Of a DNA stretch of 41,769 nt, positions 2,024 through 19,089 are shown in pieces. The position numbers and the translations under genes are program-made. Where the stretch lies: contig CAMOJK010000014.1 of the NCBI GenBank assembly GCA_946616835.1, positions 1 through 41,769 of the forward strand. Reading direction: 5' to 3'. Below the pieces are notes generated by a model. It saw only the letters and a list, made by a program, of their open reading frames with translations, was not told where the DNA came from and did no database searches. The DNA is from an uncultured Lachnospiraceae bacterium (lineage in GTDB: Bacteria > Bacillota > Clostridia > Lachnospirales > Lachnospiraceae). Position 1 is the first letter of the stretch. Every line of letters starts with the position of its first letter.

Positions 2024-2027
2024 AGTT

Positions 2028-2846
2028 ATGGTAGTACAGCACAATTTAACAGCAATGAACAGCAACAGAATGTTAGGTCTTACGACCAGCTCTCAGGCTA
2101 AGTCAACCGAGAAGTTATCTTCAGGTTACAGAGTTAACAGAGCAGCTGATGACGCAGCAGGTCTTGCTATAAGTGAGAAGATGCGCCGTCAGGTTAAGGG
2201 CTTAACACAGGCAAGCCGCAACGCACAGGATGGTATCTCTTGCGTGCAGACAGCAGAAGGTGCTCTGACAGAAGTTCATGATATGCTTCAGAGAATGAAC
2301 GTTCTCGCAAACCAGGCTTCTAACGACACAATGACAACTGCTGATCGTAGCTACCTCAATCAGGAAGTTCAGGCTCTTAAGAGCGAGATCGACCGCGTAG
2401 CTACAACAACTACATTCAATGAGAAGAACCTGCTTAACGGTAAGTTCACAGGCAAGAACCTTCAGGTTGGTGCAGAAAAGAGCCAGTTCATCAAGATTAG
2501 CATTGCTAAGATGAGCGCTTCAGGAATCGGAATTAACAATGTTTCTGTATCCGGTTCAAACAATTCAAAGGCACAGATCGCTATAAGCACCATTAAGGAT
2601 GCTTTGGCAAAGGTTTCTTCACAGAGAGCTGACCTTGGTGCTGTTCAGAACAGACTTGAGCACACAATCAAGAACCTTGACAACGTAGTAGAGAATACTA
2701 CTGCAGCTGAGTCCCAGATCCGTGATACGGATATGGCTTCCGAGATGGTTGCTTTCTCAAACAACAACATCCTGGCTCAGGCAGGTACTTCGATGCTGGC
2801 TCAGGCAAATCAGTCCAACCAGAATGTTCTTTCACTGCTTGGCTGA
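2028..2846 (+). CDS. fliC: Flagellin (short form)
   Basis: This 272-residue flagellin is the filament subunit exported by the flagellar type III system. The conserved N-terminal D0/D1 helices run from residue 1 to about 160 (LSSGYRVNRAADDAAGLAIS, then the QTAEGALTE segment), and the C-terminal D1/D0 helices from about 185 to the end (ANQSNQNVLSLLG). The surface D2/D3 domains of long flagellins are missing; only a short Ser/Asn-rich stretch at about residues 160-185 joins the two halves and is a plausible site for glycosylation. The codon choice is more biased than in the neighbouring transferase genes, as expected for a very abundant protein. The gene has its own promoters, a structured leader and a strong terminator, so it is a single-gene unit. 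The glycan-modification genes that start 200 bases downstream suggest that the protein is modified. Confidence in identity is very high. Confidence 0.98.
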   Translation: MVVQHNLTAMNSNRMLGLTTSSQAKSTEKLSSGYRVNRAADDAAGLAISEKMRRQVKGLTQASRNAQDGISCVQTAEGALTEVHDMLQRMNVLANQASNDTMTTADRSYLNQEVQALKSEIDRVATTTTFNEKNLLNGKFTGKNLQVGAEKSQFIKISIAKMSASGIGINNVSVSGSNNSKAQIAISTIKDALAKVSSQRADLGAVQNRLEHTIKNLDNVVENTTAAESQIRDTDMASEMVAFSNNNILAQAGTSMLAQANQSNQNVLSLLG

Positions 2847-2879
2847 TAAACAACCATCAATTAAACAAAGCTACCAAAG

Positions 2880-2908
2880 AAAGGGCTGTCCGAAAGGACA
2901 GCCCTTTT
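2880..2908 (+). terminator. Rho-independent terminator of flagellin gene
   Basis: An 11-12 pair perfect stem (2880-2891 with 2896-2907) with a GAAA tetraloop is followed by a short T run. It ends the flagellin transcript 34 bases after the stop codon. Confidence 0.92.
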
Positions 2909-2944
2909 ACTTTATAAATTCATTCAAAGAATGCGTAAATCAGC

Positions 2945-2958
2945 TTGAACTTGTTCAA
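2945..2958. promoter_or_regulatory. Short palindrome TTGAAC-TT-GTTCAA ahead of the LicD gene
   Basis: A perfect 14-base inverted repeat lies in the 135-base gap between the flagellin terminator and the first LicD gene. It could be an operator half-site pair. I see no convincing sigma-A or sigma-28 promoter in this gap, so how the LicD genes are transcribed is unclear. Confidence 0.25.
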
Positions 2959-3043
2959 AAAAATGTTACCATTAATTTGGAAGTCTGTATGCAGAAACTG
3001 TTTGGGATTTATTGATACTGAACAAATCAAATTTGGTTAGATA

Positions 3044-3991
3044 ATGAATTATCAGGCTGATTATTTTAATAGTGAAAAAATAGAAGGATTTGAAGTTTCG
3101 TCAATGATGAAACGTTGCTGGGCGGCACAGATGGAGGTACTGGAGTCCTTTGATGCTGTATGTAAAAAATATTCCGTCAAATATTTTTTGGCATACGGAA
3201 CATTGTTAGGGGCTGTTAGGCATAAGGGATTTATTCCGTGGGATGATGATATAGATATCTGGATGCTGAGAGAGGATATTGACAGACTGACTAATTTGGC
3301 AGTAGATGATTTTAATAGGGTGGGAATGGAACTTATAACACCTTTCACTGATGCGGAATATGATAACTTAGCGTATCGGCTGGTTAATACAAGGAACAGT
3401 TATTGCTTGCAGGAAGATTTTCTAAAGAAATATTGGCTTTTCCCTTTTATGGCAGGACTGGATATTTTTACTTTGAACTATCTGCCACGGGATGAAAAAA
3501 TGCTAAGTGATATGCGGATACTAATGGTTTCCGCGAATGTTTTGGGACAGGAATGGGATAATCCTGATCTTTCTCAGGAAGAAAAAATGGGCCTTTATCT
3601 TCAGCTTTGTGATATGTTAGGTGTGGAACCGGTAAATAATGATGGGATTCGTAATCATTTATGGCAGCTAACAGATCGGATAGGCGGAATGTATTCATCA
3701 GAGGATTCGGATCTGCTGACGACTTGGGGATACTACATAGAAGATGAGCGAAAGGTGTTTCGGAAGGAATGGTTTGAGGACATTGTGGAGCTTGAATTTG
3801 AGGGAATGTTTTTTCCGTGTCCCGCTGGCTATGATAGTGTGCTGAAGGCTGAATTTGGGGATGATTATATGATTCCAAGAAGAGTCGCAGGATCTCACGA
3901 TTATCCGTATTACTCGAGAGCACATGCCCATATGCTTGAGATGTTTGAAACGCAGGGGATACATTGTCCGGAAATATACAGGGGCTTGTAA
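3044..3991 (+). CDS. LicD/fukutin-family phosphotransferase 1
   Basis: This 315-residue cytosolic protein belongs to the LicD family, which moves a phospho-alcohol (phosphocholine in LicD, ribitol-5-phosphate in the animal relatives fukutin and FKRP) from a CDP carrier to a glycan. The nucleotidyltransferase-fold signature is complete: YGTLLGAVRHKG followed by IPWDDDIDI at residues 51-72, with metal-binding aspartates near 67-71. The C-terminal part carries the family segment CPAGYDSVLKAEFGDDYM and a His-Asp-Tyr-Pro tail. It is one of three LicD paralogues in the window. The ATG at 3044 has only a weak ribosome binding site, but its N-terminus aligns with the third paralogue (D-Y-F then E-G-F). 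The acceptor is unknown; the flagellin gene immediately upstream and a TarI/TarJ-like pair before it suggest transfer of polyol-phosphate to a flagellin glycan (inference). Confidence 0.88.
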   Translation: MNYQADYFNSEKIEGFEVSSMMKRCWAAQMEVLESFDAVCKKYSVKYFLAYGTLLGAVRHKGFIPWDDDIDIWMLREDIDRLTNLAVDDFNRVGMELITPFTDAEYDNLAYRLVNTRNSYCLQEDFLKKYWLFPFMAGLDIFTLNYLPRDEKMLSDMRILMVSANVLGQEWDNPDLSQEEKMGLYLQLCDMLGVEPVNNDGIRNHLWQLTDRIGGMYSSEDSDLLTTWGYYIEDERKVFRKEWFEDIVELEFEGMFFPCPAGYDSVLKAEFGDDYMIPRRVAGSHDYPYYSRAHAHMLEMFETQGIHCPEIYRGL

Positions 3992-4028
3992 TACATTATT
4001 TGGTTTAATTAACATATAAGGAGCTTTT

Positions 4029-4955
4029 GTGGAAGAATACGTTGGGAAGAATATAGACGGTTATTATGTCAGGCCGATGCTTCAGCGAATACGTGCTGTG
4101 CAGCTGGATGTGCTGCGTGAAGTGGATGCAATTTGTAAAAGGCACGACCTTAAGTGGTTTGCGGACTGGGGAACGCTTTTGGGGGCTGTAAGGCACAATG
4201 GTTACATTCCGTGGGATGACGATCTAGACATAGGTATGAAAAGGCTTGATTTCGAGAAATTTAAGCGTTATGCAAGAAAAGAGTTGCCGGAATGGTATTC
4301 TTATAATCTTGACAGGGACAGTAATATAAAAAAGCTTACATTCTGCATTTACAACTGCAGTGAGATTAATACGGCACCGGAGTGGTTAGAAAAAAATCAT
4401 GGATGTCCCTATCCAGCTGGTGTTGATATATTTGTATACGACAACATTCCAGATGATACAGGAGCAAGGGAGGATTATTTAGCTGTTTATTCATATACAT
4501 CTGTGGCGGCACAGGCTTTGGAAGACGGTATGACATATGCAGATTGTGATGATGAATTGAAAAAACTTATAGATATGTCATCAAATTTGACAGGAATGGA
4601 TTATGTCAGAGACCAGCCGATGAAGGTTCCTATGCTGATTCTTGCCGATCAGATAGCAGCCATGTATTTTGATGTTGTAACTGATCATGTTGCAATCGCC
4701 GGTTGCCTTACATGGGGAGAACGTTACCTTTTTATGCGTAAGTGGATAGATGATATCGTAACTCTCCCGTTTGAGGATATCGAGATTAATTGTCCGTCAG
4801 GCTATGATGAAATACTGAAGTCGTGGTATGGAGAGGATTACATGATTCCACAAAAGTATGAGGAACATGAGAATTTTTACGGCGAACAGGAAAAAAAGCT
4901 GCATTTATGGTATAAGAGCAGGGGACTAGAGGTTCCAGACCTGTTTTTAGAATAA
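4029..4955 (+). CDS. LicD/fukutin-family phosphotransferase 2
   Basis: This 308-residue LicD-family protein starts with GTG at 4029; AAGGAG at 4018-4023, five bases upstream, decides the start. The catalytic signature WGTLLGAVRHNG then IPWDDDLDI lies at residues 47-68 with aspartates at 63-65 and 67. The C-terminal family block CPSGYDEILKSWYGEDYM is present. It is diverged from the first LicD protein, so the two probably use different acceptors or act in sequence. It sits 37 bases after the first LicD gene and 15 bases before the GT4-DUF1919 gene, consistent with one operon. The donor may be CDP-choline or a CDP-polyol; no choline kinase or choline transporter gene is visible here, so a polyol is favoured. 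Confidence 0.88.
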   Translation: MEEYVGKNIDGYYVRPMLQRIRAVQLDVLREVDAICKRHDLKWFADWGTLLGAVRHNGYIPWDDDLDIGMKRLDFEKFKRYARKELPEWYSYNLDRDSNIKKLTFCIYNCSEINTAPEWLEKNHGCPYPAGVDIFVYDNIPDDTGAREDYLAVYSYTSVAAQALEDGMTYADCDDELKKLIDMSSNLTGMDYVRDQPMKVPMLILADQIAAMYFDVVTDHVAIAGCLTWGERYLFMRKWIDDIVTLPFEDIEINCPSGYDEILKSWYGEDYMIPQKYEEHENFYGEQEKKLHLWYKSRGLEVPDLFLE

Positions 4956-4970
4956 ATAAGGGAAAGACTG

Positions 4971-6953
4971 ATGCATATAAAAAAGATTTTATTCATTACA
5001 CATCAGCTTACAAGGACCGGGGCACCGAATGTTCTGTTGGACATGATAAAGTGCTGCCGAGAGTATGGTCATGCAGTTGCTGTCATATCATTATCAGACG
5101 GACCTGCCAGAAAAGACTGGGAAGAAAGCGGAGTGGATCTGAGCATAATCCCGAATCTATCCGTGCTGGGAGATCAGATGATCGGGATAATGAAGAAATT
5201 TGACACTATAGTAGTCAATACCTTAGTATGCTGTGAGATTATACCGCTCTGCGTTGAAGCTAGGACGGATACTGTATGGTGGATACATGAACATGAAAAC
5301 TATTTTGAATATTACAGGGAAGCTTTACCGTCGTGGGATGAAATAAAGGATGTGGTCAGAGTCTATGGCGTCAGCCCTGTGACTGTACGGCTGTTGACGA
5401 AGATGGCGGGATATCAGGAAGTGGGACTGCTTCCGTTCTATGTGCCGGAAATAATGAACATCCCCCAGAAGAGTAGTGATAGGAGCAGTCAAAGAATATC
5501 CTTTATATGTATAGGTGTATATGCATATGTTAAAGGACAGGATATACTGTGCAGTGCGATACGGCGGCTGCCCGAATCGTTACGGGATAAATGTGTTTTC
5601 CATTTTTTTGGAGACCGTTCCGAAGTGGATATGTCCGTCTATTCTCCGGTTGCTGAACTGGCAGAAGAGTTTGAATGTGTTGAATGCCATGACAGCGTGC
5701 CCCATGATGTAATGCTAAGGATTATTGCTGGTTCTGATTATATGGTAATACCCTCCAGGAAAGAACCGATGCCGACGGTGGCGGTAGAAGCCATGATGCT
5801 GGGAACCCCTTGCATAATATCCGATATTTGCGGTGTGACGGATTTCCTAAAAGACGGCGAGAGTGCATTGTTTTTCCTGGCAGGGGATGATGAAAAGCTG
5901 ACCGAAGTAATAGAAAGTGCTGTTAGTAATATTTCTTCTGAAATATATGAAAATATTTCCATGCAGGCAAGACAGGTTTATGAAAACAACTTTGGCTTAG
6001 AGATTTTCCGGTCAGAAATTCACGAACTTTTTGAATCAGAACATGCAGAATCGGCCAGCAGGAAAATTATACTATGCAGGTGCACTGAAGAAACTCCGGA
6101 GCTTCAGAGATGCCTCGATATCCTTGAAAAAGAGTATGGTACTCTCGAGATAGTTGGGGATATGCGGCTTGAACAGACGGCTGATGGTTACGGAATTTCG
6201 GAGATAGTGACTATGGGAGGAGCATCATTAGACTGTCTTGTATATGACTATATTCTGGTACTGGGAGATGACAGCGTAAACAGGAGCCAGGCTGTCAGGT
6301 TTTTGGAGAATGCTGCCAGTATGGAACGTCGCTGTATCCTGCCGGATAAGGTTGTGTGCCTTTCTGGATTTTCTGTTGAAAGATACGAAGCACTGATCGA
6401 ATCTAATCTGTCGATAATATCAAGTAACTGTGCAGCCGGAATGCTGTACCACCTTTTGGGTCTGCCTTTTCTTTCGCCTACAATCAATATGTTTCAGCAT
6501 AATGATTCATTTCTAAGATTTGTGTCAGACCTGTACGGACATTTATCTAAACCAGTGGTTTTTGAAAAAATGGAAAAGGAAGGCACGAAGGAGTATCCGG
6601 TATTCAGTATAGGCGATGCCATACTGCATATGAATCATTATTCGGATCCGGAAGATGCTGCATCAATATGGTATAAACGTTTAGGAAGGCTGAACCCAGA
6701 TAATATTTTAATAATGATGTTTACGGATGACAAAGAGGAAGTGGCGGCTTTTCATTATCTTCCGTTTAAAAAGAAAGTCTGTTTTGTTCCTTTCCCCTGT
6801 GATCTTCCGGATGTCTACCCTATTCCTCCATCAATTGACAGACAGGCTGAATTCTGGCAGCTGGTATTGGCTGTAGCGGATGGATCCCTTGAGTGCTACG
6901 ATCTGTTTGATATGCTTATAGAGGGGAAAAAAACGCAGATAATGGAGTTTTAG
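4971..6953 (+). CDS. GT4 glycosyltransferase fused to a DUF1919 domain
   Basis: This 660-residue cytosolic protein has two enzymes in one chain. Residues 1 to about 365 form a GT-B fold glycosyltransferase of family 4: an N-terminal hydrophobic strand then a G-A-P-N loop, and the donor-binding E-x7-E motif at Glu265 and Glu273 in EPMPTVAVEAMMLGTP. Residues from about 470 to 625 match DUF1919, a domain found in exopolysaccharide loci, seen as SIISSNCAAGMLYH, LPFLSPTINMF, the H-Y-S-D-P-E-D-A-A-x-x-W segment and a F-T-D block. A region of about 100 residues between the two is unrecognised. The usual GT4 length is about 370, so the tail is a true fusion. The gene lies 15 bases after the second LicD gene and 4 bases before the FkbM gene. 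Substrates cannot be told from sequence. Confidence 0.85.
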   Translation: MHIKKILFITHQLTRTGAPNVLLDMIKCCREYGHAVAVISLSDGPARKDWEESGVDLSIIPNLSVLGDQMIGIMKKFDTIVVNTLVCCEIIPLCVEARTDTVWWIHEHENYFEYYREALPSWDEIKDVVRVYGVSPVTVRLLTKMAGYQEVGLLPFYVPEIMNIPQKSSDRSSQRISFICIGVYAYVKGQDILCSAIRRLPESLRDKCVFHFFGDRSEVDMSVYSPVAELAEEFECVECHDSVPHDVMLRIIAGSDYMVIPSRKEPMPTVAVEAMMLGTPCIISDICGVTDFLKDGESALFFLAGDDEKLTEVIESAVSNISSEIYENISMQARQVYENNFGLEIFRSEIHELFESEHAESASRKIILCRCTEETPELQRCLDILEKEYGTLEIVGDMRLEQTADGYGISEIVTMGGASLDCLVYDYILVLGDDSVNRSQAVRFLENAASMERRCILPDKVVCLSGFSVERYEALIESNLSIISSNCAAGMLYHLLGLPFLSPTINMFQHNDSFLRFVSDLYGHLSKPVVFEKMEKEGTKEYPVFSIGDAILHMNHYSDPEDAASIWYKRLGRLNPDNILIMMFTDDKEEVAAFHYLPFKKKVCFVPFPCDLPDVYPIPPSIDRQAEFWQLVLAVADGSLECYDLFDMLIEGKKTQIMEF

Positions 6954-6957
6954 CCAT

Positions 6958-8214
6958 ATGGATTTCCATAAAAGTGAGATTAATGAAATGCTAACTTTGT
7001 TAAGGGAAAGTACTGCTCTGTTTGAACCAAACAGGTATTCAGATAGCACAGAAGGGCTTATAAATAACCTTGGCATCGTTATGAATACCGTTGCACAGCT
7101 AGTATATGATAAGGAAATACTGTGCGACATTTGCTCTGATGCAGTTAATAGTTTATGCACGGATAGAAATTCTTTGGCATTAAATGAATGGATAGTAGCA
7201 ACAGAAACGGATATTTCCCGCCTTGAGCAAATAAACAATACAGTAGACTATGAATTTGAAAGAATGATTCTTACTGTTAAAAGATCCGGTGAGGATAAGC
7301 TCTGTGAACGGCTTATTGAGAGAATAAATAGAATGCAGGATGAAGACAGGGATAATTATGAAAGGATGGCTTACCTGTATCATTCCTTAAGGCATCTTTG
7401 GGGAGAATTTAATCCGTTCCGGAAGGATTATGAACACTTCGAGAGAGCGGTAAGTGCTATAGTGCATAATGCCGAGAGGATAAGGTGGCTTTATGATTGC
7501 CTTGAAGATTACAGATCAAAGACAATATTATACAGGGTTTTGAGATTCTGGCTGACGCGGGACCTGTCTTTGGTCGATGGTATGCGGGATGAGATATTTG
7601 ATGATTATTTTGATATAGATATTTTAGGAAGATTTTTTGATAAAGATGAGGTTTTTGTGGACTGCGGTGCATGTGACGGAGATACAGCAGAACTCTTTAT
7701 TAGAAATTGTCCTAATTATAAGAGCATTTATCTTTATGAAATGGTTCCTGTTAATATTGAAATAGCGAGGAAGAAACTAAATGAATATCAGGGCATTTTT
7801 TTCAAAAATGTCGGGGTAAGCTCGCTGGAAAATGATAAAGACACAATCGTTGTGAGAAATGTTCAAGGAGGAGATTTCTCGTTAAAGGCGGTAACGAATT
7901 CGGAGGATAGTGCTTCGGTGCCGGGGCAAAGTGCTGAAGTGGGGCTGACTACAATAGATAAGGATATAAAGGAAAAAATCACTTTTATAAAAATGGATAT
8001 AGAAGGAGCAGAGCTTGATGCCATAAGTGGGGCTGTTAACCACATCAAAAATGACAAGCCTGTTCTCACAATTTCACTTTATCATAACTATCAGCATATG
8101 TGGGAGATTCCGGAATTAATACATAGCATTCGGGAAGATTACAGATTCTATATAAGGTATTATGGTGTAAACAGGGGACTTATGACTATGGATTATGTAC
8201 TTTATGCTGTTTGA
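6958..8214 (+). CDS. FkbM-family methyltransferase with long N-terminal helical domain
   Basis: The C-terminal half (about residues 220-418) of this 418-residue protein is an FkbM SAM-dependent methyltransferase. The SAM loop VFVDCGACDGDTAELF is at about 235-250, an acidic residue follows the second strand (I-Y-L-Y-E), and the family motif FIKMDIEGAELDAI lies near residue 345. Such enzymes O-methylate sugars and are common in flagellin and surface glycan loci. The N-terminal 200 residues are rich in charged helices and match no family I recognise. The start ATG lies four bases after the stop of the GT4-DUF1919 gene, so translation is probably coupled. The stop overlaps the area of the next gene's weak alternative start, and a third gene follows closely, all consistent with one operon. 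Confidence 0.88.
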   Translation: MDFHKSEINEMLTLLRESTALFEPNRYSDSTEGLINNLGIVMNTVAQLVYDKEILCDICSDAVNSLCTDRNSLALNEWIVATETDISRLEQINNTVDYEFERMILTVKRSGEDKLCERLIERINRMQDEDRDNYERMAYLYHSLRHLWGEFNPFRKDYEHFERAVSAIVHNAERIRWLYDCLEDYRSKTILYRVLRFWLTRDLSLVDGMRDEIFDDYFDIDILGRFFDKDEVFVDCGACDGDTAELFIRNCPNYKSIYLYEMVPVNIEIARKKLNEYQGIFFKNVGVSSLENDKDTIVVRNVQGGDFSLKAVTNSEDSASVPGQSAEVGLTTIDKDIKEKITFIKMDIEGAELDAISGAVNHIKNDKPVLTISLYHNYQHMWEIPELIHSIREDYRFYIRYYGVNRGLMTMDYVLYAV

Positions 8215-8249
8215 ATCTGCAACAGCAGGTACAAAGAGGACTGGATATA

Positions 8250-9446
8250 ATGAAAAAAATTGCGGTGGTGTCTGGGGCATGTGAGATGACCGGCGGTGTC
8301 CTCAGTTCTATTTCTGAGGATTTTGCTGAAGCATTAACTGAATCAGGAGAAGAGGTGGAGTATGAATTCCTTATGGGATATGAGGATGCTCTTAGGTTAT
8401 GCAAAAATAAAGAACTTGACGCTATAGTCACATTTCAAAGCGGTTTTTTTTCAATGTCCGTAGACGGTCAGGCAGCAGATGCTCTTTTGGGGGATATTAC
8501 GGATGTTCCAAAATTTAATATAATGTTTGATTCGCCTGCACTATATAGATCCTGCCTAATGAATAAACTTCAGAATGTCACATATTTATATCATGATGAG
8601 TATTATGTGGATTTTATAAAAAAAAATTATGCAGGTATCCGGGTAAAACTTTTTCCGTTAGCGGGGAGCATGGGAACAAATGCACTAAGGCATTATGATA
8701 ATAATAAATTTAACGGTGATTTTTTTCCTGATAGAAAATTTGATGTTTCTTTTGTCGGCCGGTACAATGATTATAGGGAAATACTGCAGAACCTGAATGT
8801 TGGCGATGAAGCTGTTATGAACCTTGCTTTAGATTATTTTGATTTTTTGCTGTCACATGCACAGCTGGATGCAGGGGCGTCTATTTTCGAGATGATTGCC
8901 GACAAGGGTCTGGACCTTTCACAAAGTGAAGTGCTGTATCTGTTTGAATTGTTTTATCCTGTAGTTACAGCGGTGGACAGTTACAGGCGGGAACTGGTGA
9001 TAAAAAAACTGATTGATGCGGGAATTGAGATTGATGTTTTTTCAAGCAGTTGGCAAAAGGCACCGTATGCTGATGGTAGAAGAATACATATACATCCGGG
9101 GGTATCATACCGAGGTGGACTTAATGTTATGTCAAAAAGCTTAATGTCGCTTAATGTTTTTTCCGGGCATAAGGGGGGGATGACAGAAAGAATTGCAAAC
9201 AGTATGTTAAACGGTGCTGTGTGTGTGACGGATTCATCAAGCTATATAAGCAAGAATTTCAGAAACGGCGAAAATATCGTAGTTTTTGATCTGAATTATC
9301 TTGATGATATGGTGAATCGCGTTTATGGATTGCTCGATGACAGAACGAAAGCGGAAGCCATTGCGTTAGAAGGTTTTTATAATGCAATGAATAAACATTC
9401 CTGGTCAGTGAGAATTAAAGAGTTCTGTGATTTAATTAATAAATGA
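8250..9446 (+). CDS. CgeB-like glycosyltransferase rich in homopolymer tracts
   Basis: This 398-residue protein resembles the CgeB/DUF3880-type glycosyltransferases (Glyco_trans_1_2 C-terminal domain). The C-terminal half shows FDVSFVGRYNDYR, a VIKKLIDAGIEIDVFSS segment and the block SLMSLNVFSGHKGGMTERIA, which corresponds to the donor site. The ATG at 8250 is preferred over a TTG at 8211 because AAAGAGGA (8233-8240) lies nine bases upstream. The gene contains T8 (8444-8451), A9 (8628-8636) and G7 (9173-9179) runs, all in frame, which make it a candidate for slipped-strand switching like the broken gene next to it. It is the last gene of the 3044-9446 series and meets an opposite-strand gene head-on. 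The sugar and acceptor are unknown. Confidence 0.78.
   Translation: MKKIAVVSGACEMTGGVLSSISEDFAEALTESGEEVEYEFLMGYEDALRLCKNKELDAIVTFQSGFFSMSVDGQAADALLGDITDVPKFNIMFDSPALYRSCLMNKLQNVTYLYHDEYYVDFIKKNYAGIRVKLFPLAGSMGTNALRHYDNNKFNGDFFPDRKFDVSFVGRYNDYREILQNLNVGDEAVMNLALDYFDFLLSHAQLDAGASIFEMIADKGLDLSQSEVLYLFELFYPVVTAVDSYRRELVIKKLIDAGIEIDVFSSSWQKAPYADGRRIHIHPGVSYRGGLNVMSKSLMSLNVFSGHKGGMTERIANSMLNGAVCVTDSSSYISKNFRNGENIVVFDLNYLDDMVNRVYGLLDDRTKAEAIALEGFYNAMNKHSWSVRIKEFCDLINK
9173..9179 (+). repeat. G7 tract inside CgeB-like gene
   Basis: Seven consecutive G residues encode part of His-Lys-Gly-Gly-Met in the conserved C-terminal domain. The gene is in frame with seven. A one-base slip would truncate the protein before its C-terminus. 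Confidence 0.6.
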
Positions 9447-9498
9447 GAAACTACACCCGTTTAGAACCGTTATAGTTTGATTAAGCGGATCATAAGAA

Positions 9499-10651
9499 TT
9501 ACGAAGTAATGATCGTTACTAATTTTTCAAGATCATCTTGCTGTCTTTGGGTTATTTTTCCGATATTTAAATCTATTTTTCTTTTGTATTCATCTCTGAT
9601 CTCATCAGAAAAACTTTGAAGTATTCGGTTTTCTATTTCTCCGACAAAAAGCGGATTGAAATATATTGCCATTTCTCCAAGGATTTCGCAGAGTGAGGTA
9701 GAAGCTGAACATAGACAGGGAACATGGTAGTGCATTGCTTCTAAGGGGGGGGTATCCAAATCCTTCATTAAAAGAAGGGAAGACAAATGTATGGGCATTT
9801 TTATACAGTATCTCTAAGAGTTCTGCAGATAAATAGGGAAGAATGATGAACCTTGTTTTGTTAGCAACCTGGCTGAGTATCGAATCAGGGGTGTCTATCC
9901 CTGTTATGATTACCCTGTAATCACCGCCGACACGGTCGGGACATCTGCTGAAAAAATGATCGTAGGCAATGGCTGCCCTAAGAACATTTTTATAATAAAT
10001 ATTACCGCTAACCATAAGCGAAAAGTAATTCGTTGTGACCTGCAGTGCAGATAAAACAGCATCCTCATCACTGTTTATTACACCCTTCTTTTTCATCGGA
10101 GGGTACAGAACTTCAACCTCATTGTCTTCTAAAAATGGATAGTATTTCAAAAGACTGTATTTAGAGTGGCGGGAATCGGTTATTATTTTACGTTTTGAAG
10201 CATTTTTTATTAGGGTGCCATAGAAGTCGGTTAATTCATTAATAGTTCCCGTGTCATTAAGACCGAAATATTCCCCCTTCATTATTCCGGAGTAATCTGT
10301 TAGCTCTAATTGCCTAAGACCATGATATGTACCAATGTAATTTACCTGTGGGGGGAGAATAACCCCCTGTCGATCGGCCTGATACGGAAGCGGTGAAAAA
10401 AAAGTATCATATCCGTACTGAGTTATCAGTTCCGGAAGTTCATTAAAACTGCTAATGGAGAATATTTCCCAATTAGCGTTAGAGGCCTCTGTAAGCAGAT
10501 CGTCCTTACATTCTAAATTGTCATAATAGAACAAGCCAAACTGGGCATTTTTTTCACATAATAGCCTGCGGATTATGGTATCACCATATTCGCCTCCACC
10601 GTGAAATGTTCCATGCTGGTAATATGTATAATCTATAAGAATACGTTTCAT
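9499..10651 (-). pseudogene. GT4 glycosyltransferase frameshifted at a C8 tract, candidate phase-variable gene (OFF)
   Basis: The first 302 codons (10651 down to 9746) encode a normal GT-B family 4 glycosyltransferase beginning MKRILIDYTYYQHGT, with a glycine loop GGGEYGD, a SGNIYYKN linker and the donor-site start FNEGFGYPP. The frame then breaks at eight C residues (9752-9745) and runs into unrelated sequence ending at 9605. Removing one C restores LEAMHYHVPCLCS and a normal C-terminus to 9499, giving 383 residues, the usual GT4 length. The break falls inside the catalytic E-x7-E motif (Glu296, then Glu304), so the second glutamate is lost in the present state. Both sides of the break are otherwise intact, which argues for a recent or reversible event. 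The gene is the only transferase on this strand and is divergent from the DUF616 gene. A sequencing error in the tract is the main alternative. Confidence 0.82.
9745..9752 (-). repeat. C8 homopolymer (G8 on + strand), frameshift site
   Basis: Eight identical bases encode the end of Tyr300 and Pro301-Pro302 of the GT4 gene. Seven (or ten) would keep the full-length frame; eight puts it out of frame. Tracts of this kind switch surface-glycan genes in Campylobacter and Helicobacter by slipped-strand mispairing. Confidence 0.8.
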
Positions 10652-10755
10652 AGTAAACCTTCATTTTGTGCAGTTTGTTTGTAGTTGTAATTATATATCA
10701 TAAGATCTGTTTTTTCATAAAAAAGAATGTCTTGACTAATTATTTGGATTGTTTT

Positions 10756-10764
10756 TGGTATAAT
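10756..10764 (+). promoter_or_regulatory. Extended -10 promoter for the DUF616 gene
   Basis: TGGTATAAT (10756-10764) is a perfect TG-n-TATAAT extended -10 element. A TTGACT at 10732-10737 lies upstream but with a 21-base spacer, so the extended -10 probably compensates. The transcript would start about 30 bases before the ATG at 10800. Confidence 0.65.
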
Positions 10765-10799
10765 CTATATAAAATCAGTATAGAAAGGGCACAGTGTGA

Positions 10800-11849
10800 A
10801 TGTATGAATCTATAACCCGGCAACTGTATACGCTTGCTGATCAATTGGAAAGAGTGGAGGACTGTGCATCACTGCCGCTGGATGAAATCGTAAGGATAGC
10901 CGGTGAAATGCTTGATAACATAGGACTGGATAAAAATGTACTGTACTGCTCTATGCAGGAAATGGTAGATGATGCAGTAGGAAATAGCAGTATAGTTGAA
11001 CTGAGGTCCGCAATACGAATGCTTGCCCTGCTTATTGAAACGGAGGATAAAGCGGCGGCCTATGGGGCATTGGCAGAATCCTACAAGGAGGTGGTAGTTC
11101 GGCGCATGCCGGAATACAATTACCTGAAAAACAGAGAGCGGCTGATAAAGTATTATGAACAACATGAGCGTAAAATGCGTGATCCTTTTATGGGAAAGGG
11201 CTGCGTATATACGGTACTGACAGGCGGGTATGATGATATAATTCCGCCAGTATTTGTAGATCCGTTAATGGATTATATTGTATTTACTGATACACCGGGG
11301 CTGATTGCAGATGGCTGGGAAGTAAGGATGATTGATAATCATGAGGGATTGGATGTTGCATTTTTATCAAGGCTGCCCAAGATACTGCCATATTCATTTC
11401 TGGAGGGGTATGATTATGCTCTGTATATAGATGCAAATATTCAGATAACCGGGGACGTAAGGGAACTGATAAGACTATATAGCAGTGGCGAACCGATGTT
11501 GTGCCTGAATCACCATATAAACGCAGATATATATGAGGAGGCGGAGCTGTGCATTGAGAATGGGAAGGGAGATCCTGTTCAAATCAAAAAGCAGATTGAA
11601 CAGTATGAAAATGAGGGCTTTCCACATGATTACGGCCTGACACAGAATGGTTTTTTGCTGCGAAACCTGCATGATGAGCGGTTAAGGAAGGTGATGCAGG
11701 ACTGGTGGGAAGAGCTGAATCACTATTCTAAACGTGACCAGCTAAGTCTTACATATTGTTGCTGGAAGAACGACTTTATGTACGATACTTGTCCGATATC
11801 AATAGCGGACAATCCTTTTTTTGAAATACACGGCCATAAAAATAGTTGA
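10800..11849 (+). CDS. DUF616-type putative glycosyltransferase
   Basis: This 349-residue protein has a helical N-terminal region of about 125 residues and then a DUF616 domain, a GT-A-like fold found in plant and bacterial glycan enzymes. The visible motifs are YTVLTGGYD at the first strand, DYIVFTD, RLPKILPYSFL, the metal-binding Y-I-D-A-N block (a D-x-N/DxD-like site at about residue 212) and the acceptor side HDYGLTQNGFLLRN followed by DQLSL. The ATG at 10800 is supported by AAAGGG at 10784-10789. It begins a new operon with its own promoter, divergent from the frameshifted GT4 gene, and its 3' end lies 13 bases from the next start. The specificity is unknown. Confidence 0.82.
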   Translation: MYESITRQLYTLADQLERVEDCASLPLDEIVRIAGEMLDNIGLDKNVLYCSMQEMVDDAVGNSSIVELRSAIRMLALLIETEDKAAAYGALAESYKEVVVRRMPEYNYLKNRERLIKYYEQHERKMRDPFMGKGCVYTVLTGGYDDIIPPVFVDPLMDYIVFTDTPGLIADGWEVRMIDNHEGLDVAFLSRLPKILPYSFLEGYDYALYIDANIQITGDVRELIRLYSSGEPMLCLNHHINADIYEEAELCIENGKGDPVQIKKQIEQYENEGFPHDYGLTQNGFLLRNLHDERLRKVMQDWWEELNHYSKRDQLSLTYCCWKNDFMYDTCPISIADNPFFEIHGHKNS

Positions 11850-11862
11850 TAGCGGGGGATGT

Positions 11863-13029
11863 ATGAAAGTTCTTCTTTACACCTGGTTTGGGTCCTATAC
11901 GGATGATGATATAGAGAGAAATCTCAGGGGCATGGGCCATGAGTGTATTAGAGTACGGAATGAAAAACTTCAGTATTCGGATAATTACGAAGAAGATTCA
12001 TTCTGCGAAGGCTTTGACGGCATGCTAAAGAAAGCGGACTGTGATTGTGTGCTGACAACGAATTTTCATCCTTTGATATCAAAGGTATGTTATGAAAATG
12101 GAATTCCCTATATTGCCTGGTCATATGATAGCCCGCCAAATCTTCCGGATACCAGATATATGGATTATCCGACGAATCATCTGTATTTTTTCTCAAGGGA
12201 TGATGTGGAAGAACTGAGATCCCAGGGGCTGGATACGGTTTATTATATGCCGTTAGCTGTGGACACTGACAAATGGGATGCGGTAAGGCTTTCTGAAAAA
12301 AAACGAAGAACATATGAGGCTGATATTTCCCTGGTAGGAAGTCTTTATAGTTCGACTTTGCCTGCACTGATGCAGATGATGTCTGATGAACAGAGGCTCT
12401 TTTTTGAAACATTGTCTGACCTCCAGCTGAAAAGTTATGATAAATATCTGCTAAAGGACTTTATCACACCGGGAGTGGCGGCGGAGGTGTGCCGCACCTT
12501 AGCTGATAATGGAAAGGATAATATACAGCCTACTGCAAGACAGCTGATATATGCGACAGCGACATATGTGACGCATTTAGACAGGCTTTTGTTGCTGAAA
12601 GTACTGTCAGAAAAATACGATACCCACTTGTATACAGATGAGTCGGCCAGCGGAATAACGGAAGTACTTAAGTCTGTCAGGATTCATGGCCAGGTGGATT
12701 ATGATAAGGAGATGCCGCTTGTTTTTAAGTGCAGCAGGATAAATCTCTGTCCGACATTCAGGGGAAATGTTTCGGGGATACCCCTTCGGATTTTAGATGT
12801 AATGGGATGTTCATCTTTTGTACTGGCTCCTCATCGGCCGGAAATAGATGATTTCTTCATTGATGGCCGTGAAATGATTACTTATCATAGTGCAGAGGAG
12901 GCTTTGGAAAAAGCTGATTATTATTTGAGAAATGAAAATGAAAGAGTAAAAATAGCAAAAGCAGGCTATGAAAAAGTAAAGAAACAGTTTTCATATAAAA
13001 CTCAGCTTGCAAAAATACTAAAAATATAA
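11863..13029 (+). CDS. DUF3880/CgeB-like glycosyltransferase
   Basis: This 388-residue protein has an N-terminal DUF3880-type domain (MKVLLYTWFGSYTDDDI; then WSYDSPPNLPD and the LYFFSRDDVEEL segment) and a C-terminal Glyco_trans_1_2 domain with INLCPTFRGNVSGIPLRILD and a V-x-G-C-S-S-F-V-L-like core. Proteins of this type replace the metal-free GT-B donor site of GT4 enzymes. The ATG at 11863 is chosen because GGGGGA at 11854-11859 lies directly upstream; an ATG at 11821 is in frame but lies within the previous gene. It is a paralogue of the genes at 8250 and 14215. Together with the DUF616 gene it forms an operon. Substrates are unknown. Confidence 0.83.
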   Translation: MKVLLYTWFGSYTDDDIERNLRGMGHECIRVRNEKLQYSDNYEEDSFCEGFDGMLKKADCDCVLTTNFHPLISKVCYENGIPYIAWSYDSPPNLPDTRYMDYPTNHLYFFSRDDVEELRSQGLDTVYYMPLAVDTDKWDAVRLSEKKRRTYEADISLVGSLYSSTLPALMQMMSDEQRLFFETLSDLQLKSYDKYLLKDFITPGVAAEVCRTLADNGKDNIQPTARQLIYATATYVTHLDRLLLLKVLSEKYDTHLYTDESASGITEVLKSVRIHGQVDYDKEMPLVFKCSRINLCPTFRGNVSGIPLRILDVMGCSSFVLAPHRPEIDDFFIDGREMITYHSAEEALEKADYYLRNENERVKIAKAGYEKVKKQFSYKTQLAKILKI

Positions 13030-13162
13030 ATCTAGGATGATGGGTATTGCTGAGGTGGAGTGACAGATGGATAAATTAGTACCAGAAGAATTGGATGATA
13101 CGCAGACTGGAATTATATAGGTGTGAGGAAACACTAAAGCAGGTGGTTTTACTCAGGGTTAG

Positions 13163-14188
13163 ATGATTATGGATACAGGAAAATTAGTGCTGCAACTGAT
13201 GGATTTAGCTTTGAATAGTCCCGATAAGCTTGTGTCAATGAATTGGGATGATGTTAATCTGTGCATCAGCATGGAACTGGATTATAGGGACAAAATTTAT
13301 TCCGAATGTCAGTTCCAGAGGATTCGGAACAGGCAAACGGAGATTGTTGGAGAAATTAAGTATGCAGCAGATTTATCACAGTATGGGAATGTATATTCCC
13401 TGCTGGCTGAACTCTATGGGATGATTTCTGCAATGCCGGATATTGATAGTTATTATGATTTGGTTTGCAGTGAAAAAATGGAGCATGAAGCGGTAAGGCA
13501 CTTGAGAGATAATACGGTGTTAGTTGTTGGAGATTCACATGTTAATTTTTTTAGCGGTAATGAATATCTAAGTTTTAGCCGGGCAGCAGGCGATATTAAT
13601 ATTTGTCCGGTTGTTAATGGTTATCCTTTTTCAGTTTTTCATTTTGGTCAATGTCTGGCATATACTGCCCGAAATCATGATTCAACTACAGGATTTCGAA
13701 GAAAGTTGGATTTCCTGCTTAATAATTATGCAAGAAAAAGCGATGTGATCCTGGTGTCCCTTGGTGAAATTGATATACGTGCTCATGTCTATAAAGAAGC
13801 GAAGAAACAGGGACGAAGTGCTGAGGATATAATAGATGATATATTGGCAAGTTATATGGCTTTTTTATGTGAACTTAAGGAAAAGGTTAGTAAGGTTGCT
13901 GTGTGGGGGCCTATAGCAACGCCGAAGGATATCGCATTCGAGCAGAACGACTATCCGCATTATGGTACTGAAATAGAAAGAAATAAGGCAACGCGTTATT
14001 TTAATGATTCATTAAGAAAATCCTGTGGCGAGGAAGGGATATACTTTTTTTCGATTTTTAACGATATGATAACAGATGACTATAGAACTAAGGAACAGTA
14101 TTTATCACCGGACTATTTCCATTTGGGGCAGGCGGCAATGGTTATAGCTGAGTCGCAGCTTCGTGAAATGGCAGGATTAGTAAGATAA
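13163..14188 (+). CDS. SGNH/GDSL-like hydrolase or acyltransferase
   Basis: This 341-residue protein has an N-terminal helical part of about 115 residues and a C-terminal SGNH-type fold. The nucleophile block VVGDSHVNFF contains Ser125, the oxyanion-type block reads SLGEID (about residues 199-204), and the catalytic pair is Asp317-x-x-His320 in SPDYFHLG. No signal peptide or membrane segment is seen, so it acts in the cytosol. In a glycan locus such an enzyme could add or remove acetyl or other acyl groups on the sugars. There is no close ribosome binding site beyond a weak AGGG, and a 133-base gap precedes it. The gene sits between two CgeB-like transferase genes. Confidence 0.75.
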   Translation: MIMDTGKLVLQLMDLALNSPDKLVSMNWDDVNLCISMELDYRDKIYSECQFQRIRNRQTEIVGEIKYAADLSQYGNVYSLLAELYGMISAMPDIDSYYDLVCSEKMEHEAVRHLRDNTVLVVGDSHVNFFSGNEYLSFSRAAGDINICPVVNGYPFSVFHFGQCLAYTARNHDSTTGFRRKLDFLLNNYARKSDVILVSLGEIDIRAHVYKEAKKQGRSAEDIIDDILASYMAFLCELKEKVSKVAVWGPIATPKDIAFEQNDYPHYGTEIERNKATRYFNDSLRKSCGEEGIYFFSIFNDMITDDYRTKEQYLSPDYFHLGQAAMVIAESQLREMAGLVR

Positions 14189-14214
14189 ATTCTAATAAAG
14201 TATAGTGTAATTAT

Positions 14215-15399
14215 ATGGAGATACTTTTCTACAGATATAAATCAATATGTGAACCGGATATCATAGAGTCTTTTCAAAAGCTGGGGATTACTGTAGTAGA
14301 AGAAAGGCTTGCAGAAAAAACGGAAGGAAATGCGGAACTTTACCTGGTGGACAGAGTAGAGCATCTGATAAAGACGCATCGTTTTATGTTTGTGTTTTCG
14401 GTCAATTTTTTTCCTGTACTGTCGGATGTGTGTGACATTATGGGGGTGCCCTATATATCATGGACTGTAGATGTGCCGGTTCTTGAACTGTTTTCTCATT
14501 CAGTCAGCAATAAGTGCAACCGTATATTCATGTTTGACAGGACACAGTATCAGTATTTTAAGAAATACAATCCAGACGGTATTTTTTATCTCCCGCTTGC
14601 CACAAATGTTTCGAGATGGGAACGGGTACTGGGAGATGCTTCTGTTGCTCACTTTGATAAATACAGATCTGACATTTCTTTTGTAGGTTCTTTGTATAGT
14701 GAAAAAAACGCTTACAGAAAAATAAAGGGAATGAGTGAGTATACAAAGGGATACATACAGGGACTCATCGAGGCACAGCTGCTGATTTATGGCATGAACT
14801 TTATAGAAGATACGGTCACGGATAAAATGCTGGATGAGCTGGCCACATTAATACCTGATATGCATCAGCCTTTATGCGAGAACAATCCTGAGGCTCAAAA
14901 ATACCTATTGGCCAATTCATTCATAGGATCCGAACTGGCACAGGTGGAAAGGACAAGGATCCTGAATAAACTTGCGGAGACGCATAATGTTGAATTGTAC
15001 ACCTTGAGCGATGCGAAGGATATGCCGAGGGTGAATCTTCATGGCGGAGTGGATTCACAGCGTGAAATGCCGTTGGTATTTGCAGCAAGCAGAATAAATA
15101 TGAATATTACAATGCGGCCTATAGCAAGTGGACTTTCTCTTAGGGTATACGATATTTGTGGCTGCGGCGGTTTTCTTATGACCAACTGGCAGGAAGAACT
15201 GCCGGAAATGTATGAGATTGGTGAAGAAGCAGAGTGTTTTGCCTCACAGGAAGAACTGTTGGAAAAAACTGAATATTATTTGAAAAATGAAGATGTAAGA
15301 AGGCAAATAGCTATGCGGGGATATGAACGCACAAAAGCAGAACATACATATGATGCAAGAATTGCGGAAATGATACGCATTGTTAATGGGACATTATAG
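14215..15399 (+). CDS. DUF3880/CgeB-like glycosyltransferase
   Basis: This 394-residue protein is a paralogue of the 11863 gene. The N-terminal DUF3880-type domain has the segments PYISWTVDVPV, NRIFMFDRTQY and FYLPLATN; the C-terminal domain has DISFVGSLYSEKNAYR, MPLVFAASRINMNITMR and SGLSLRVYDICGCGGF, which form the donor pocket. The ATG at 14215 lacks a good ribosome binding site, so translation may depend on the upstream gene 26 bases away. A truncated relative of this gene lies at 18760-19089, sharing the SFIGSELAQ and RTKAEHTYDARIAEMIR blocks, so the gene was duplicated locally. Its stop lies 22 bases before the third LicD gene. Confidence 0.84.
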   Translation: MEILFYRYKSICEPDIIESFQKLGITVVEERLAEKTEGNAELYLVDRVEHLIKTHRFMFVFSVNFFPVLSDVCDIMGVPYISWTVDVPVLELFSHSVSNKCNRIFMFDRTQYQYFKKYNPDGIFYLPLATNVSRWERVLGDASVAHFDKYRSDISFVGSLYSEKNAYRKIKGMSEYTKGYIQGLIEAQLLIYGMNFIEDTVTDKMLDELATLIPDMHQPLCENNPEAQKYLLANSFIGSELAQVERTRILNKLAETHNVELYTLSDAKDMPRVNLHGGVDSQREMPLVFAASRINMNITMRPIASGLSLRVYDICGCGGFLMTNWQEELPEMYEIGEEAECFASQEELLEKTEYYLKNEDVRRQIAMRGYERTKAEHTYDARIAEMIRIVNGTL

Positions 15400-15421
15400 A
15401 AAAAGAAACGGTGAAGTATTT

Positions 15422-16792
15422 ATGCTTGAATTTTCTGAAGATTATTTTAAACCGGAGATAAGAGAAGGCTTTTTCATTGACACAACCATGAAAATGGTCT
15501 GGGCAGCCATACTGGAAACTCTTGCCAGGGTATCCGCTGTCTGTTCTAAGTATGATATTCAGTGGTACTGTGCATACGGTACACTTCTCGGTGCCATACG
15601 TCATGAGGGTTTCATCCCTTGGGATGATGACATGGATATATGGGTGATGCGCAAGGACTATAACAGGATGATGGAGGTCCTTCCAAAGGAATTGCCCGGA
15701 GAATACAAGATATTAAGCCCGCTTACCGATGACGGATATGATCTGTTCCATTGCTGTATAAACAATGGGCGTACGATAACTGCCAATCCGGATCGGCTCA
15801 GGGAGTACCATGGGTGTCCCTTTACTGTTGCGATAGATGTATTTCCTCTTGATAAGGTTCCACGGGATGAGAACAATGGAAAAACACAGCTTCAGATGTT
15901 TTCATTGATATCTGATGCTGCTCTTGCAGCCAGAAGCCTTGGATTGGATGAAATAACTGGGCAAAAGAAAGCTGACACCATGTCTGATCTGCTGCAGGTG
16001 AAGGAAACTATGGAGAATCTGTATGGGTATCATTTTAATGATGCGGTATTTGTGGGGGATGATTACCGGTTGATGTCTTCTGAATTCTGGAAATGTGCTA
16101 ACTGTATAGCTATGCTGTATGATGATGACGATTTTGATTATTATGCTAATTTTTATGACTATAAGCGTTTTGGCAGCAAGTTTGAAAAAGAGTATTTCTC
16201 GGATGTTTACAGTGCGGATTTTGAGAATGTAATGCTTCCTATACCCTCGGGGTATGACGAACTGTTAAAAAAGATATATGGTGATTACATGACACGGGTC
16301 AAGGGAGGTGGCACCCATGAATATCCGTTCTATGCAAAGCAGCTGAGGGAAGCCAGGGAAACAGTAAAAAGACTTGAAAACAGTAAGCCCACAACAGACA
16401 ATATATTTCCTATGAACTGGGAAGAAATGATATCCGGGAAGAAGGTTGTTCTATTTGAGGACGGTATCTCACTCTACACAGAGCATGGACAGAAAGCTCT
16501 GGATAAGCTTAATGAAGTGCTGTGTTTGTTTAGTGAGTGTTCCGACAGCTGTGTTTTATGGTGGCGGCCGCAGTCGCAGATCCGCACTGCACTTGGTCTT
16601 TTGTCTGAAGAACTTTTGGAGAAGTACAATGAAATTGTAGATAAATACTTAGCGGATAGTTATGGTATTTATGATATGGAAATGGATGATGAAATTGCGT
16701 TGTCAAAATGCGATGCATATTATGGTGAGAAGAATACAACTGTAAATCTACTAAAGGGTAAAGTACCGATTATGATAGAGGCTATTTTATGA
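15422..16792 (+). CDS. LicD-family phosphotransferase 3 with C-terminal extension resembling a CDP-glycerol transferase half-domain
   Basis: This protein of about 456 residues has a complete LicD domain (residues 1 to about 325) with AYGTLLGAIRHEG and IPWDDDMDIW at residues 51-74 and metal aspartates near 68-72. A C-terminal piece of about 130 residues is absent from the other two LicD proteins; it contains VLWWRPQ, a Y-G-I-Y-D segment, and SKCDAYYGEKNTTVNLLKG ending at KVPIMIE. These spacings resemble the nucleotide-binding half of CDP-glycerol glycerophosphotransferases (W-R-P-H then D-x-x-x-S-D), although the key His is Gln here. I recall similar LicD fusions in this bacterial group, but this is family-level memory, not proof. 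The ATG at 15422 is chosen by alignment with the first LicD protein; an in-frame ATG at 15386 and a TTG at 15380 overlap the previous gene. Confidence 0.82.
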   Translation: MLEFSEDYFKPEIREGFFIDTTMKMVWAAILETLARVSAVCSKYDIQWYCAYGTLLGAIRHEGFIPWDDDMDIWVMRKDYNRMMEVLPKELPGEYKILSPLTDDGYDLFHCCINNGRTITANPDRLREYHGCPFTVAIDVFPLDKVPRDENNGKTQLQMFSLISDAALAARSLGLDEITGQKKADTMSDLLQVKETMENLYGYHFNDAVFVGDDYRLMSSEFWKCANCIAMLYDDDDFDYYANFYDYKRFGSKFEKEYFSDVYSADFENVMLPIPSGYDELLKKIYGDYMTRVKGGGTHEYPFYAKQLREARETVKRLENSKPTTDNIFPMNWEEMISGKKVVLFEDGISLYTEHGQKALDKLNEVLCLFSECSDSCVLWWRPQSQIRTALGLLSEELLEKYNEIVDKYLADSYGIYDMEMDDEIALSKCDAYYGEKNTTVNLLKGKVPIMIEAIL

Positions 16793-17793
16793 ACGAACAG
16801 TACAGCAGAGATATAAAAAAATACACAACAATCATTGTTATTACTCCTAAGGACTTTCCTCGACTGGTGAGGCATTACAAGAGGCTTGTTACTAATATGC
16901 CATCCGAACGGTTGCTTTTTGTATCCGCTTCAGGGATAGAGGGAGAACTGATAAAAGCCGATCTTGGGGACAATGTCAGTTTCGTGGACGAGAATGAGCT
17001 TCTGAAATTTGAGGATGTTAGAGATTGCATGGCGGAGCACTTGAGACCACTTCTGGGAAACGAACCTGTTCCACGCGGAGCTGTCGGCTGGTATTACCAG
17101 CAGTTTCTGAAAATGGAATATTCCCGTATTTGTGAGGATGAGTTTTATATGGCCTGGGATGGAGACACTATACCCTGTGCATCTTTTTCAATGTTTCAGG
17201 AAGGAACGGGGATGCCATACCTGGATGTGAAGCAGGAATACCACGCTCTGTATTTTGAAACGCTTGAAAAGATTCTGCCGGGTATGAGAAAGGTAATAGG
17301 GAAATCTTTTATATCCGAGCATATGCTTTTTGACAAAAAGATCATGCAGGAGCTTATTGCAAAGATTGAGGAAAATAAAGAACTTGCGGGTACGAAATAC
17401 TGGGAGAAGATAATACATGCCATAAAGCCGGAACAGATAAGTGACAGCGGATTCAGTGAATTTGAGACTTATGGAACCTTTGTGGCTTTTACGGATCCGG
17501 GACGTTATAAGTTGCGTGAGTGGCATTCCTTTAGGCTGGGAGCGGAGTTTTTTGATCCTGAGAACATATGTGACAGGGATTTTGAGTGGCTGGCAAAGGA
17601 TTTTCAGGCTATATCTTTTGAAAAGAATCAGGTGGTAAGGCCTGATAACAAAAATCTTTTTGATAATCCGGAATACCAGAAGAAGCTTTCCGCAAGAAAG
17701 ATGCTTGAAGTGGCCCAGGAGGCTTTTAATGGCGGATATATAGAAATCTGGGGAGAAAATGGAGGCCAGGTCGGCTCGGATCCTCTTGCATAA
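16789..17793 (+). CDS. DUF6492-family putative glycosyltransferase
   Basis: This 334-residue protein belongs to the DUF6492 group of GT-A-like enzymes. After a short N-terminal strand (TIIVITPKDF) it shows GWYYQQFLKME, a metal-binding D-x-D in AWDGDTIP (about residues 123-130), SFISEHMLFDKK, and GFSEFETYGTF. The start overlaps the stop of the LicD fusion gene by four bases (ATGA), so the two are translationally coupled and may act in the same step, for example building the acceptor for the LicD enzyme. It is the last intact gene before the accessory patch; no terminator stem with a T run is seen behind it. The specificity is unknown. Confidence 0.83.
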   Translation: MNEQYSRDIKKYTTIIVITPKDFPRLVRHYKRLVTNMPSERLLFVSASGIEGELIKADLGDNVSFVDENELLKFEDVRDCMAEHLRPLLGNEPVPRGAVGWYYQQFLKMEYSRICEDEFYMAWDGDTIPCASFSMFQEGTGMPYLDVKQEYHALYFETLEKILPGMRKVIGKSFISEHMLFDKKIMQELIAKIEENKELAGTKYWEKIIHAIKPEQISDSGFSEFETYGTFVAFTDPGRYKLREWHSFRLGAEFFDPENICDRDFEWLAKDFQAISFEKNQVVRPDNKNLFDNPEYQKKLSARKMLEVAQEAFNGGYIEIWGENGGQVGSDPLA

Positions 17794-18327: not shown

Positions 18328-18741
18328 ATACCTGTTGAATGGCTGCGGCTTATCGCAGAGGATGATTATGATACCGTGGTTCGGCTGGCTATTGCAGATT
18401 TTGAACAGTCTCTCCGTAATAAGAATTATAATAGGGCTCAGTGGCTATTATTTTCTAATCAGTGGTTTTAAAAGGTTTATAGTGAACAGAAATATAATGC
18501 GTTATTGTCGGACTTGTATTGTTTCTACGATCAGATGATAAAGACCGGTCATTCAGATGCTTTTGACGGCCTTGAGACGATAGAGGATATAGTGGTACAT
18601 TATGGATAACATATAGAAGACAAAGGATATGCTCGGGCATATGCAGCTGATGATAGAGAGATCGTTAAGATAGGTGTCAATTTTAGTTCAGAAAAGAAGA
18701 ATATTGATGGCTGGCTTGTAAAAAGAGAAGCACGTCCATAA
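18328..18741 (+). pseudogene. Decayed coding remnant; last part like the C-terminus of a DUF1703 AAA-ATPase/nuclease
   Basis: One frame, the same as the HEPN gene, reads as plausible protein but has stops near 18470, at 18607 and at 18739. The first part (EWLRLIAEDDYDTVVRLA, then KNYNRAQWLLFSNQ) is unrecognised. The last 40 codons (KGYARAYAADDREIVKIGV, then NFSSEKKNIDGW) resemble the C-terminal PD-(D/E)xK end of proteins that pair an AAA-ATPase-like domain with DUF1703, common in gut Firmicutes and Bacteroidetes. The upstream ATPase part is missing. This is a family-level recollection and the gene is non-functional in any case. Confidence 0.5.
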
Positions 18742-18759
18742 GTACAGGGGGATAGGGGG

Positions 18760-19089
18760 GCGCAGAGATATCTCATAGCCCATTCATTTATTGGCTCTGA
18801 ATTGGCACAGACGGAGAGGCTTCGTCTGCTGAATGCTCTGGCGGAATATTATGGGGTGGATTTGTATACATTAAGTGATACGGAGGAACTGCCGGAAATA
18901 TATGAGCCGGGAGTGGAAGTGGAGTATTTTACATCACAGGAAGAGCTTATTGATAAAGTCGGCTATTATCTGGAGCATGATGACGAACGGAAAGCCATTG
19001 CGCTACGCGGGTATGAGCGCACCAAAGCAGAGCATACCTACGATGCAAGGATTGCAGAGATGATAAGGGTAGTGAATTCGACGCTGTAG
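18760..19089 (+). pseudogene. Truncated CgeB-like glycosyltransferase remnant with internal deletion
   Basis: The fragment aligns with the C-terminal third of the intact gene at 14215-15399: RYLIAHSFIGSELAQTER against KYLLANSFIGSELAQVER, and RGYERTKAEHTYDARIAEM is identical in both. About 59 codons that hold the donor pocket (from LHGGVDS to CGCGGF of the parent) are missing, and the frame passes directly from L-Y-T-L-S-D to E-E-L-P-E-x-Y-E. The 5' two thirds are absent. It is therefore a local duplicate that lost its catalytic core. The in-frame deletion and preserved frame suggest fairly recent decay. Confidence 0.85.

Follow-up and report, generated by a model that had tools for sequence, protein, structure and literature searches.

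A frame break at a run of eight C in a GT4 glycosyltransferase gene of a Lachnospiraceae flagellin locus: a candidate recent, slip-broken OFF allele

Inactivation at homopolymeric tracts has been described for Listeria inlA, B. subtilis swrA and C. coli flhA. Switching rates of about 10^-3 to 10^-7 are given there for short tracts, poly(A)/poly(T) in most cases, and poly(C)/poly(G) runs are described as not biased to the 5' end (PMC2831843). In Campylobacter jejuni, the flagellin-glycan-locus gene Cj1295 and genes like it carry a G/C homopolymer whose length sets the reading frame, and the maf genes are reported to be partially rescued by translational frameshifting at G/C runs (PMC3068675). 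Frameshifting of the +1 type is also described on slippery proline codons when tRNA-Pro lacks m1G37 (PMC7577736). A search of open-licence titles and abstract beginnings returned, among the matches listed, no report of phase variation at a homopolymer in Lachnospiraceae, Clostridia or rumen bacteria. The kind of system considered here is already known; phase variation of the GT4 gene described below is unproven.

The window, by which we mean the whole stretch of DNA analysed, is an entire contig (C14, 41,769 bases) of the draft genome G000, which comprises 178 contigs, is 85.6% complete and is the one genome of its species among those compared. The features needed for the argument are as follows.

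9499..10651, minus strand: GT4 glycosyltransferase gene with one frame break, at the C-run
9745..9752, minus strand: run of eight C, where two frames are offset by one base
9605..10651, minus strand: upstream open reading frame (ORF) of 348 aa; genuine GT4 up to residue 303, off frame beyond it
9499..9798, minus strand: downstream ORF of 99 aa; genuine GT4 C-terminus from residue 17 on
9739..9766, minus strand: region of the E-x7-E motif, NEGFGYPPLEAM, interrupted by the run
2028..2846, plus strand: flagellin gene, which marks the locus
8211..9446, plus strand: Glyco_trans_1_2 gene, convergent to the GT4 gene, with T8, A9 and G7 runs in its open frame
10800..11849, plus strand: TOD1/MUCI70-like glycosyltransferase, with a homologue near the GT4 homologue in genome G024
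18622..19086, plus strand: decayed remnant of a DUF3880-type transferase, 34.7% identical to residues 178-394 of the product of 14215-15399

The ORF translations place the break at the run. The upstream ORF reads through NEGFGYPPL and then continues off frame for 45 codons, and the sequence from PPLEAMHYH to the stop is encoded by the downstream ORF. Aligned to a same-genus relative (L002 in G024), the upstream half is identical at 118 of 316 positions (37%), ending in NEGFGYPPL with its last two aligned residues already off frame; the downstream half is identical at 39 of 81 positions (48%), from PPLEAM to near the end. Since each half aligns to its own, adjoining part of this relative and the two meet at the run, they represent one gene with one break. 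This agrees with the first-pass annotation, which had described a GT4 gene open on both sides of an eight-C run; the one-base offset and the match of both halves to a single relative bear it out. The 383-residue enzyme that it had reconstructed also matches our count (302 residues through the Pro-Pro pair plus 81), a count that is a sum of lengths only.

No second lesion was seen in the gene. Both halves are open and jointly cover the G024 relative nearly end to end, with none of the further stops, indels or truncation that would characterize a decayed pseudogene. Outside the run, no nonsense codon occurs in 1140 bases, which points either to a recent break or to continuing selection on the gene. 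If the gene has been neutral since the break, divergence is bounded at about 5%, counting substitutions only. Given that the run makes up 0.7% of the gene, the location of the lone break precisely within it argues for slippage or a homopolymer error and against a random indel. The presence of such a run is not unusual, with one eight-C run found in the window and 0.98 expected from dinucleotide shuffling. As in phase-variable genes, a simple repeat within the coding sequence (eight C, with a one-base offset between the flanking frames) sets the reading frame by its length.

The run separates the two Glu codons of the E-x7-E region (the first at 9764-9766, the second at 9739-9741), as had been stated before, and these codons lie in different frames, leaving the window copy with no in-frame E-x7-E. 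The accompanying proposal that the donor site hangs on the second Glu stands only in part: the Glu pair is split, but the second Glu is not universal, being Glu in 40, Gln in 33 and another residue in seven of the 80 named homologues. The Gln-bearing homologues (within loci L082-L144) come in many cases from Fibrobacter. The missing C-terminus is a better argument than the second Glu for loss of GT4 function. To the extent that the structural model of the G024 relative can stand for it, the truncated product, which lacks a portion of the C-terminal donor-binding domain, should be inactive. In this model the Pro-Pro pair begins a helix at residue 311 of 396, so a break there costs the C-terminal domain about 85 residues.

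Family and fold were assigned from intact relatives. The upstream ORF, in which the domain is cut, scores 23.3 bits for Pfam Glycos_transf_1, below the cut-off of 26.4 bits, and three intact relatives score above it (59.7-74.8 bits). The model of the G024 relative, which was modelled in place of the window copy, has a GT-B fold with a mean pLDDT of 88; it was built from an alignment of 25 rows, in which this relative was joined by both window pieces and 22 of the 79 other named homologues. Its Foldseek matches in the PDB are the GT4/GT-B enzymes BshA (5d01), MshA (3c4q), WaaG (8b5q) and PimA (2gej), at 11-15% sequence identity. A phmmer search against PDB sequences returned only one match, at E 0.82.

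We compared the run and its frame across homologues, using the best 80 of 171 confirmed loci and leaving out the other 91. The motif is in frame in all 80 of these best-ranked homologues. Among the 76 of them whose runs were measured, the longest C-run at the motif is six C, found in two, and none is longer; the four homologues without an upstream anchor, whose runs were left out, are all in frame at 385-405 aa. The GT4 genes of the genus and family likewise reach a maximum of six C, in two of 41 motif copies, some of which come from overlapping loci and all of which were found with a search pattern that required an intact motif. The retention of the run in homologues that would support a phase-variable gene is therefore not seen in this set, where the maximum is six C. 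The closest same-genus homologue also has Tyr-Pro-Pro-Leu here, spelled with six C and likewise with TTA for Leu, which makes a shorter run before the slip plausible. One measured homologue, L136, has an open frame that stops 36 codons past the motif start, unlike the other 75.

Homologous loci in same-genus genomes include L079 (contig C6 of G024) and L154 (contig C35 of G031). A protein scan of GTDB genomes found no close relative of the 348-aa ORF; among 397 genomes of the family, only G000 itself and G351 had matches at E <= 1e-20. Viral contigs, searched for an exact 23-base DNA match, held no other copy.

The surroundings of the gene suggest a surface-glycan function. The GT4 gene is the sole gene-like minus-strand ORF in 18-17793 that is not covered by a longer plus-strand ORF, which confirms the lone inverted orientation remarked on in the first-pass annotation. 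The plus-strand genes around it encode an IspD-family cytidylyltransferase (which also matches a D-ribitol-5-phosphate cytidylyltransferase model, below that model's cut-off), a zinc dehydrogenase, flagellin, three LicD-family proteins, members of several glycosyltransferase families, an FkbM methyltransferase, the TOD1/MUCI70-like protein and a GDSL-like protein, the last below Pfam cut-offs. The IspD-family gene, the dehydrogenase gene beside flagellin and the three LicD-family genes are found at 18-1774 and at 3044, 4029 and 15380; as a set they could direct a phospho-polyol decoration of the flagellin glycan. As suggested by the neighbourhood in this one window, the GT4 enzyme most likely acts on the flagellin glycan encoded here. 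The GT4 homologues in G024 and G031 sit amid other surface-polysaccharide-type genes; no flagellin was recognised by eye near them among ORFs of at least 180 aa over about 20 kb.

In G024, the TOD1/MUCI70-like homologue lies two genes away from the GT4 homologue, which hints that the two act in one pathway. The TOD1/MUCI70-like protein was found in three of 35 genus genomes at E <= 1e-15, G000 included, and we rejected a conserved neighbourhood of the two genes as strong evidence, since it is shared with one other genome, G024. A scan for promoters and terminators gave three promoter-like sites (5.1 in shuffles) and two terminator-like sites (1.0 in shuffles). The only Rfam match in the window is a ribosomal protein L10 leader (RF00557) at 36921-37074 on the plus strand. 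The remnant at 18622-19086, which is paralogous to 14215-15399, seems to have lost an internal segment. Its decay indicates that gene loss occurs at this locus, and this favours ordinary gene loss.

Taken with modest confidence, our preferred reading is that the GT4 gene is a recent, probably revertible, slip-broken OFF allele of a surface-glycan gene. The intact product would be a GT4-family glycosyltransferase of GT-B fold that adds a sugar to a surface glycan. The run would have arisen incidentally where the conserved Tyr-Pro-Pro motif is encoded, and a recent slip by one base, from a shorter run, would have altered its length and left the gene OFF in the assembled genome. Across 21 window ORFs, 18% of the Pro codons are CCC and 27% of the Tyr codons are TAC (114 TAC, 313 TAT); an unbroken C-run over Tyr-Pro-Pro is thus uncommon but needs no special cause. 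The OFF product, without about 85 residues of its C-terminal, donor-binding domain, would be inactive. Short homopolymers slip back measurably in other bacteria, and we infer that the allele is probably revertible, so that the gene might act as a crude on/off locus whose run would not have been shaped into a conserved switch. That an incidental run in a conserved motif slipped by one base is the most economical account of the break.

Less probable, and in our view doubtful, is a true phase-variable switch, in which selection keeps the run, cells flip between frames and a flagellar or other surface glycan varies. The run does lie inside a glycosyltransferase gene of a flagellin-glycan locus, and the lack of decay elsewhere in the gene is consistent with a gene still in use. 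The run is located in the last quarter of the gene, however, and no homologue run exceeds six C, neither in the 76 measured nor in the 41 motif copies found with the intact-motif pattern. The first-pass annotation had proposed such a switch of a surface glycan. Its slip at a C-run, breaking a GT4 gene in a flagellin/LicD glycan locus, survives our analysis; the switch itself loses ground to the absence of any measured homologue with more than six C. The same annotation had counted a homopolymer-rich neighbour as adding to the signal. The convergent gene at 8211-9446 is indeed rich in such runs, but its frame is open across all three.

The distribution of runs in the rest of the genome also bears on a switch. 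The 3.05 Mb of G000 contain only nine distinct C8+ runs, rarer than the shuffled window predicts, and with regard to an enrichment of long runs in surface genes, one of these nine is in uvrA. Together with all 38 exact C7 runs they make up the 47 G/C runs considered, of which 36 (at least seven bases long) fall within open frames of at least 150 aa or at their edges. Only two of these 36 are associated with breaks, so long G/C runs are not concentrated in broken genes; one of the two is the GT4 gene and the other, the single break accepted among the C7 runs, is a gene for a DUF6273 protein. In the genus, 28 of 54 distinct C9+ runs listed were examined (27 from other genomes, one from G000), and one broke a frame. 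This case, L185 (contig C98:29295-29343 of G008), is a run of 49 G with N nearby, and we rejected it as probably an assembly artefact.

Four further candidates in G000 (L203, L211, L212 and L251; three at C7 runs and one at an A9 run) were rejected on ORF length alone, a longer opposite-strand frame covering the run in each (209, 263, 642 and 652 aa). Three of the covering frames look by eye like a permease, an ABC ATPase and a helicase, with L203 the least sure. At L041 (contig C33:26360-26370), a C11/G11 run lies where an open frame starts, directly before a sequence that by eye resembles a lipoprotein start, and could affect expression rather than frame.

The DUF6273 gene (G000 contig C30:20774-20782; L216, L260) is split near a G7 run into frames of 183 aa and 406 aa. 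The frame is open in its relatives (579 aa in G021, 598 aa in G006), and as a second break in the same genome the split gene lends some weight to a switch. The comparison with G021 shows a weakly conserved segment of about 16 residues that includes the G7 run, and the second part aligns to the G006 relative from a residue just before the run; the break can therefore not be pinned to the run. By eye the protein has a signal-peptide-like start, and neighbours on both sides of the gene match PHROGs families; the gene may be mobile cargo. The wider idea that slippage at G/C runs forms a small surface contingency system in this rumen/gut-type Lachnospiraceae, with the GT4 gene and the secreted-looking DUF6273 gene both caught OFF, strikes us as unlikely.

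More unlikely again is an assembly or sequencing error at the homopolymer, in which case the real GT4 gene would be intact. Homopolymers are a classic site of such errors. An error would fit the draft state of the genome, the lesion-free remainder of the gene and the position of the second break, likewise near a G7 run. Other runs of the same genome argue against it: the four coding G/C runs of at least eight bases elsewhere in G000 are in frame (uvrA on contig C67 with G8, a frame of 744 aa with G9, and two large frames on contig C82, each with G8), and 30 of the 51 A9/T9 runs found were examined, 25 of them inside frames of at least 150 aa or at their edges, with no convincing break. The T8, A9 and G7 runs of the neighbouring gene, all within its open frame, point the same way. 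The caution given earlier, that an assembly error would yield the same picture, is correct in principle but loses force with so many homopolymers in frame.

Recoding, in which ribosomes (or RNA polymerases) slipping at CCC-CCC-C would make some full-length enzyme from the eight-C allele, is very improbable: slippery Pro codons can be shifted (PMC7577736) and maf genes rescued (PMC3068675), and the Pro anticodons found are AGG, CGG and TGG with GGG not seen, but the missing GGG is weak evidence in tRNAs from an 85.6% complete draft, relatives lack a long run, and the 45 off-frame codons leave no stop close behind the run to pace a programmed site.

The two leading readings differ in what they would mean. 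If the run toggles, this commensal-type Lachnospiraceae would have a flagellar or surface glycan gene under homopolymer switching. If the break is a recent slip, which we consider more likely, it calls for caution: GT4 motifs can, through their conserved Pro-Pro, create a slippery C-run of their own, and a frame break there is therefore not callable as a switch without reads.

Compared with the retaining GT4 enzymes BshA, MshA, WaaG and PimA, the gene is alike in the GT-B fold, as seen in the intact relative, and in the E-x7-E region; it differs in that the frame break cuts the window copy short and that the relative shares only 11-15% identity with these enzymes. Listeria inlA, B. subtilis swrA and C. 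coli flhA resemble it in that a one-base slip at a short run inactivates a surface or motility gene, reversibly in those cases and probably so here, but their runs are poly(A)/poly(T) at the 5' end (PMC2831843), unlike the 3'-ward C-run of the GT4 gene. The nearest parallel in gene context is C. jejuni Cj1295. There, according to PMC3068675, the run lies in the 5' region, has been shown to differ between variants and belongs to a locus with ten tracts. The window GT4 gene, in contrast, has one run, near its 3' end and not conserved, and is known from one assembly. Both genes place a G/C homopolymer in a flagellin-glycan locus, where its length sets the frame, and in both eight is the out-of-frame length (PMC3068675). 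By analogy, the window GT4 gene could work like these known homopolymer-switched genes.
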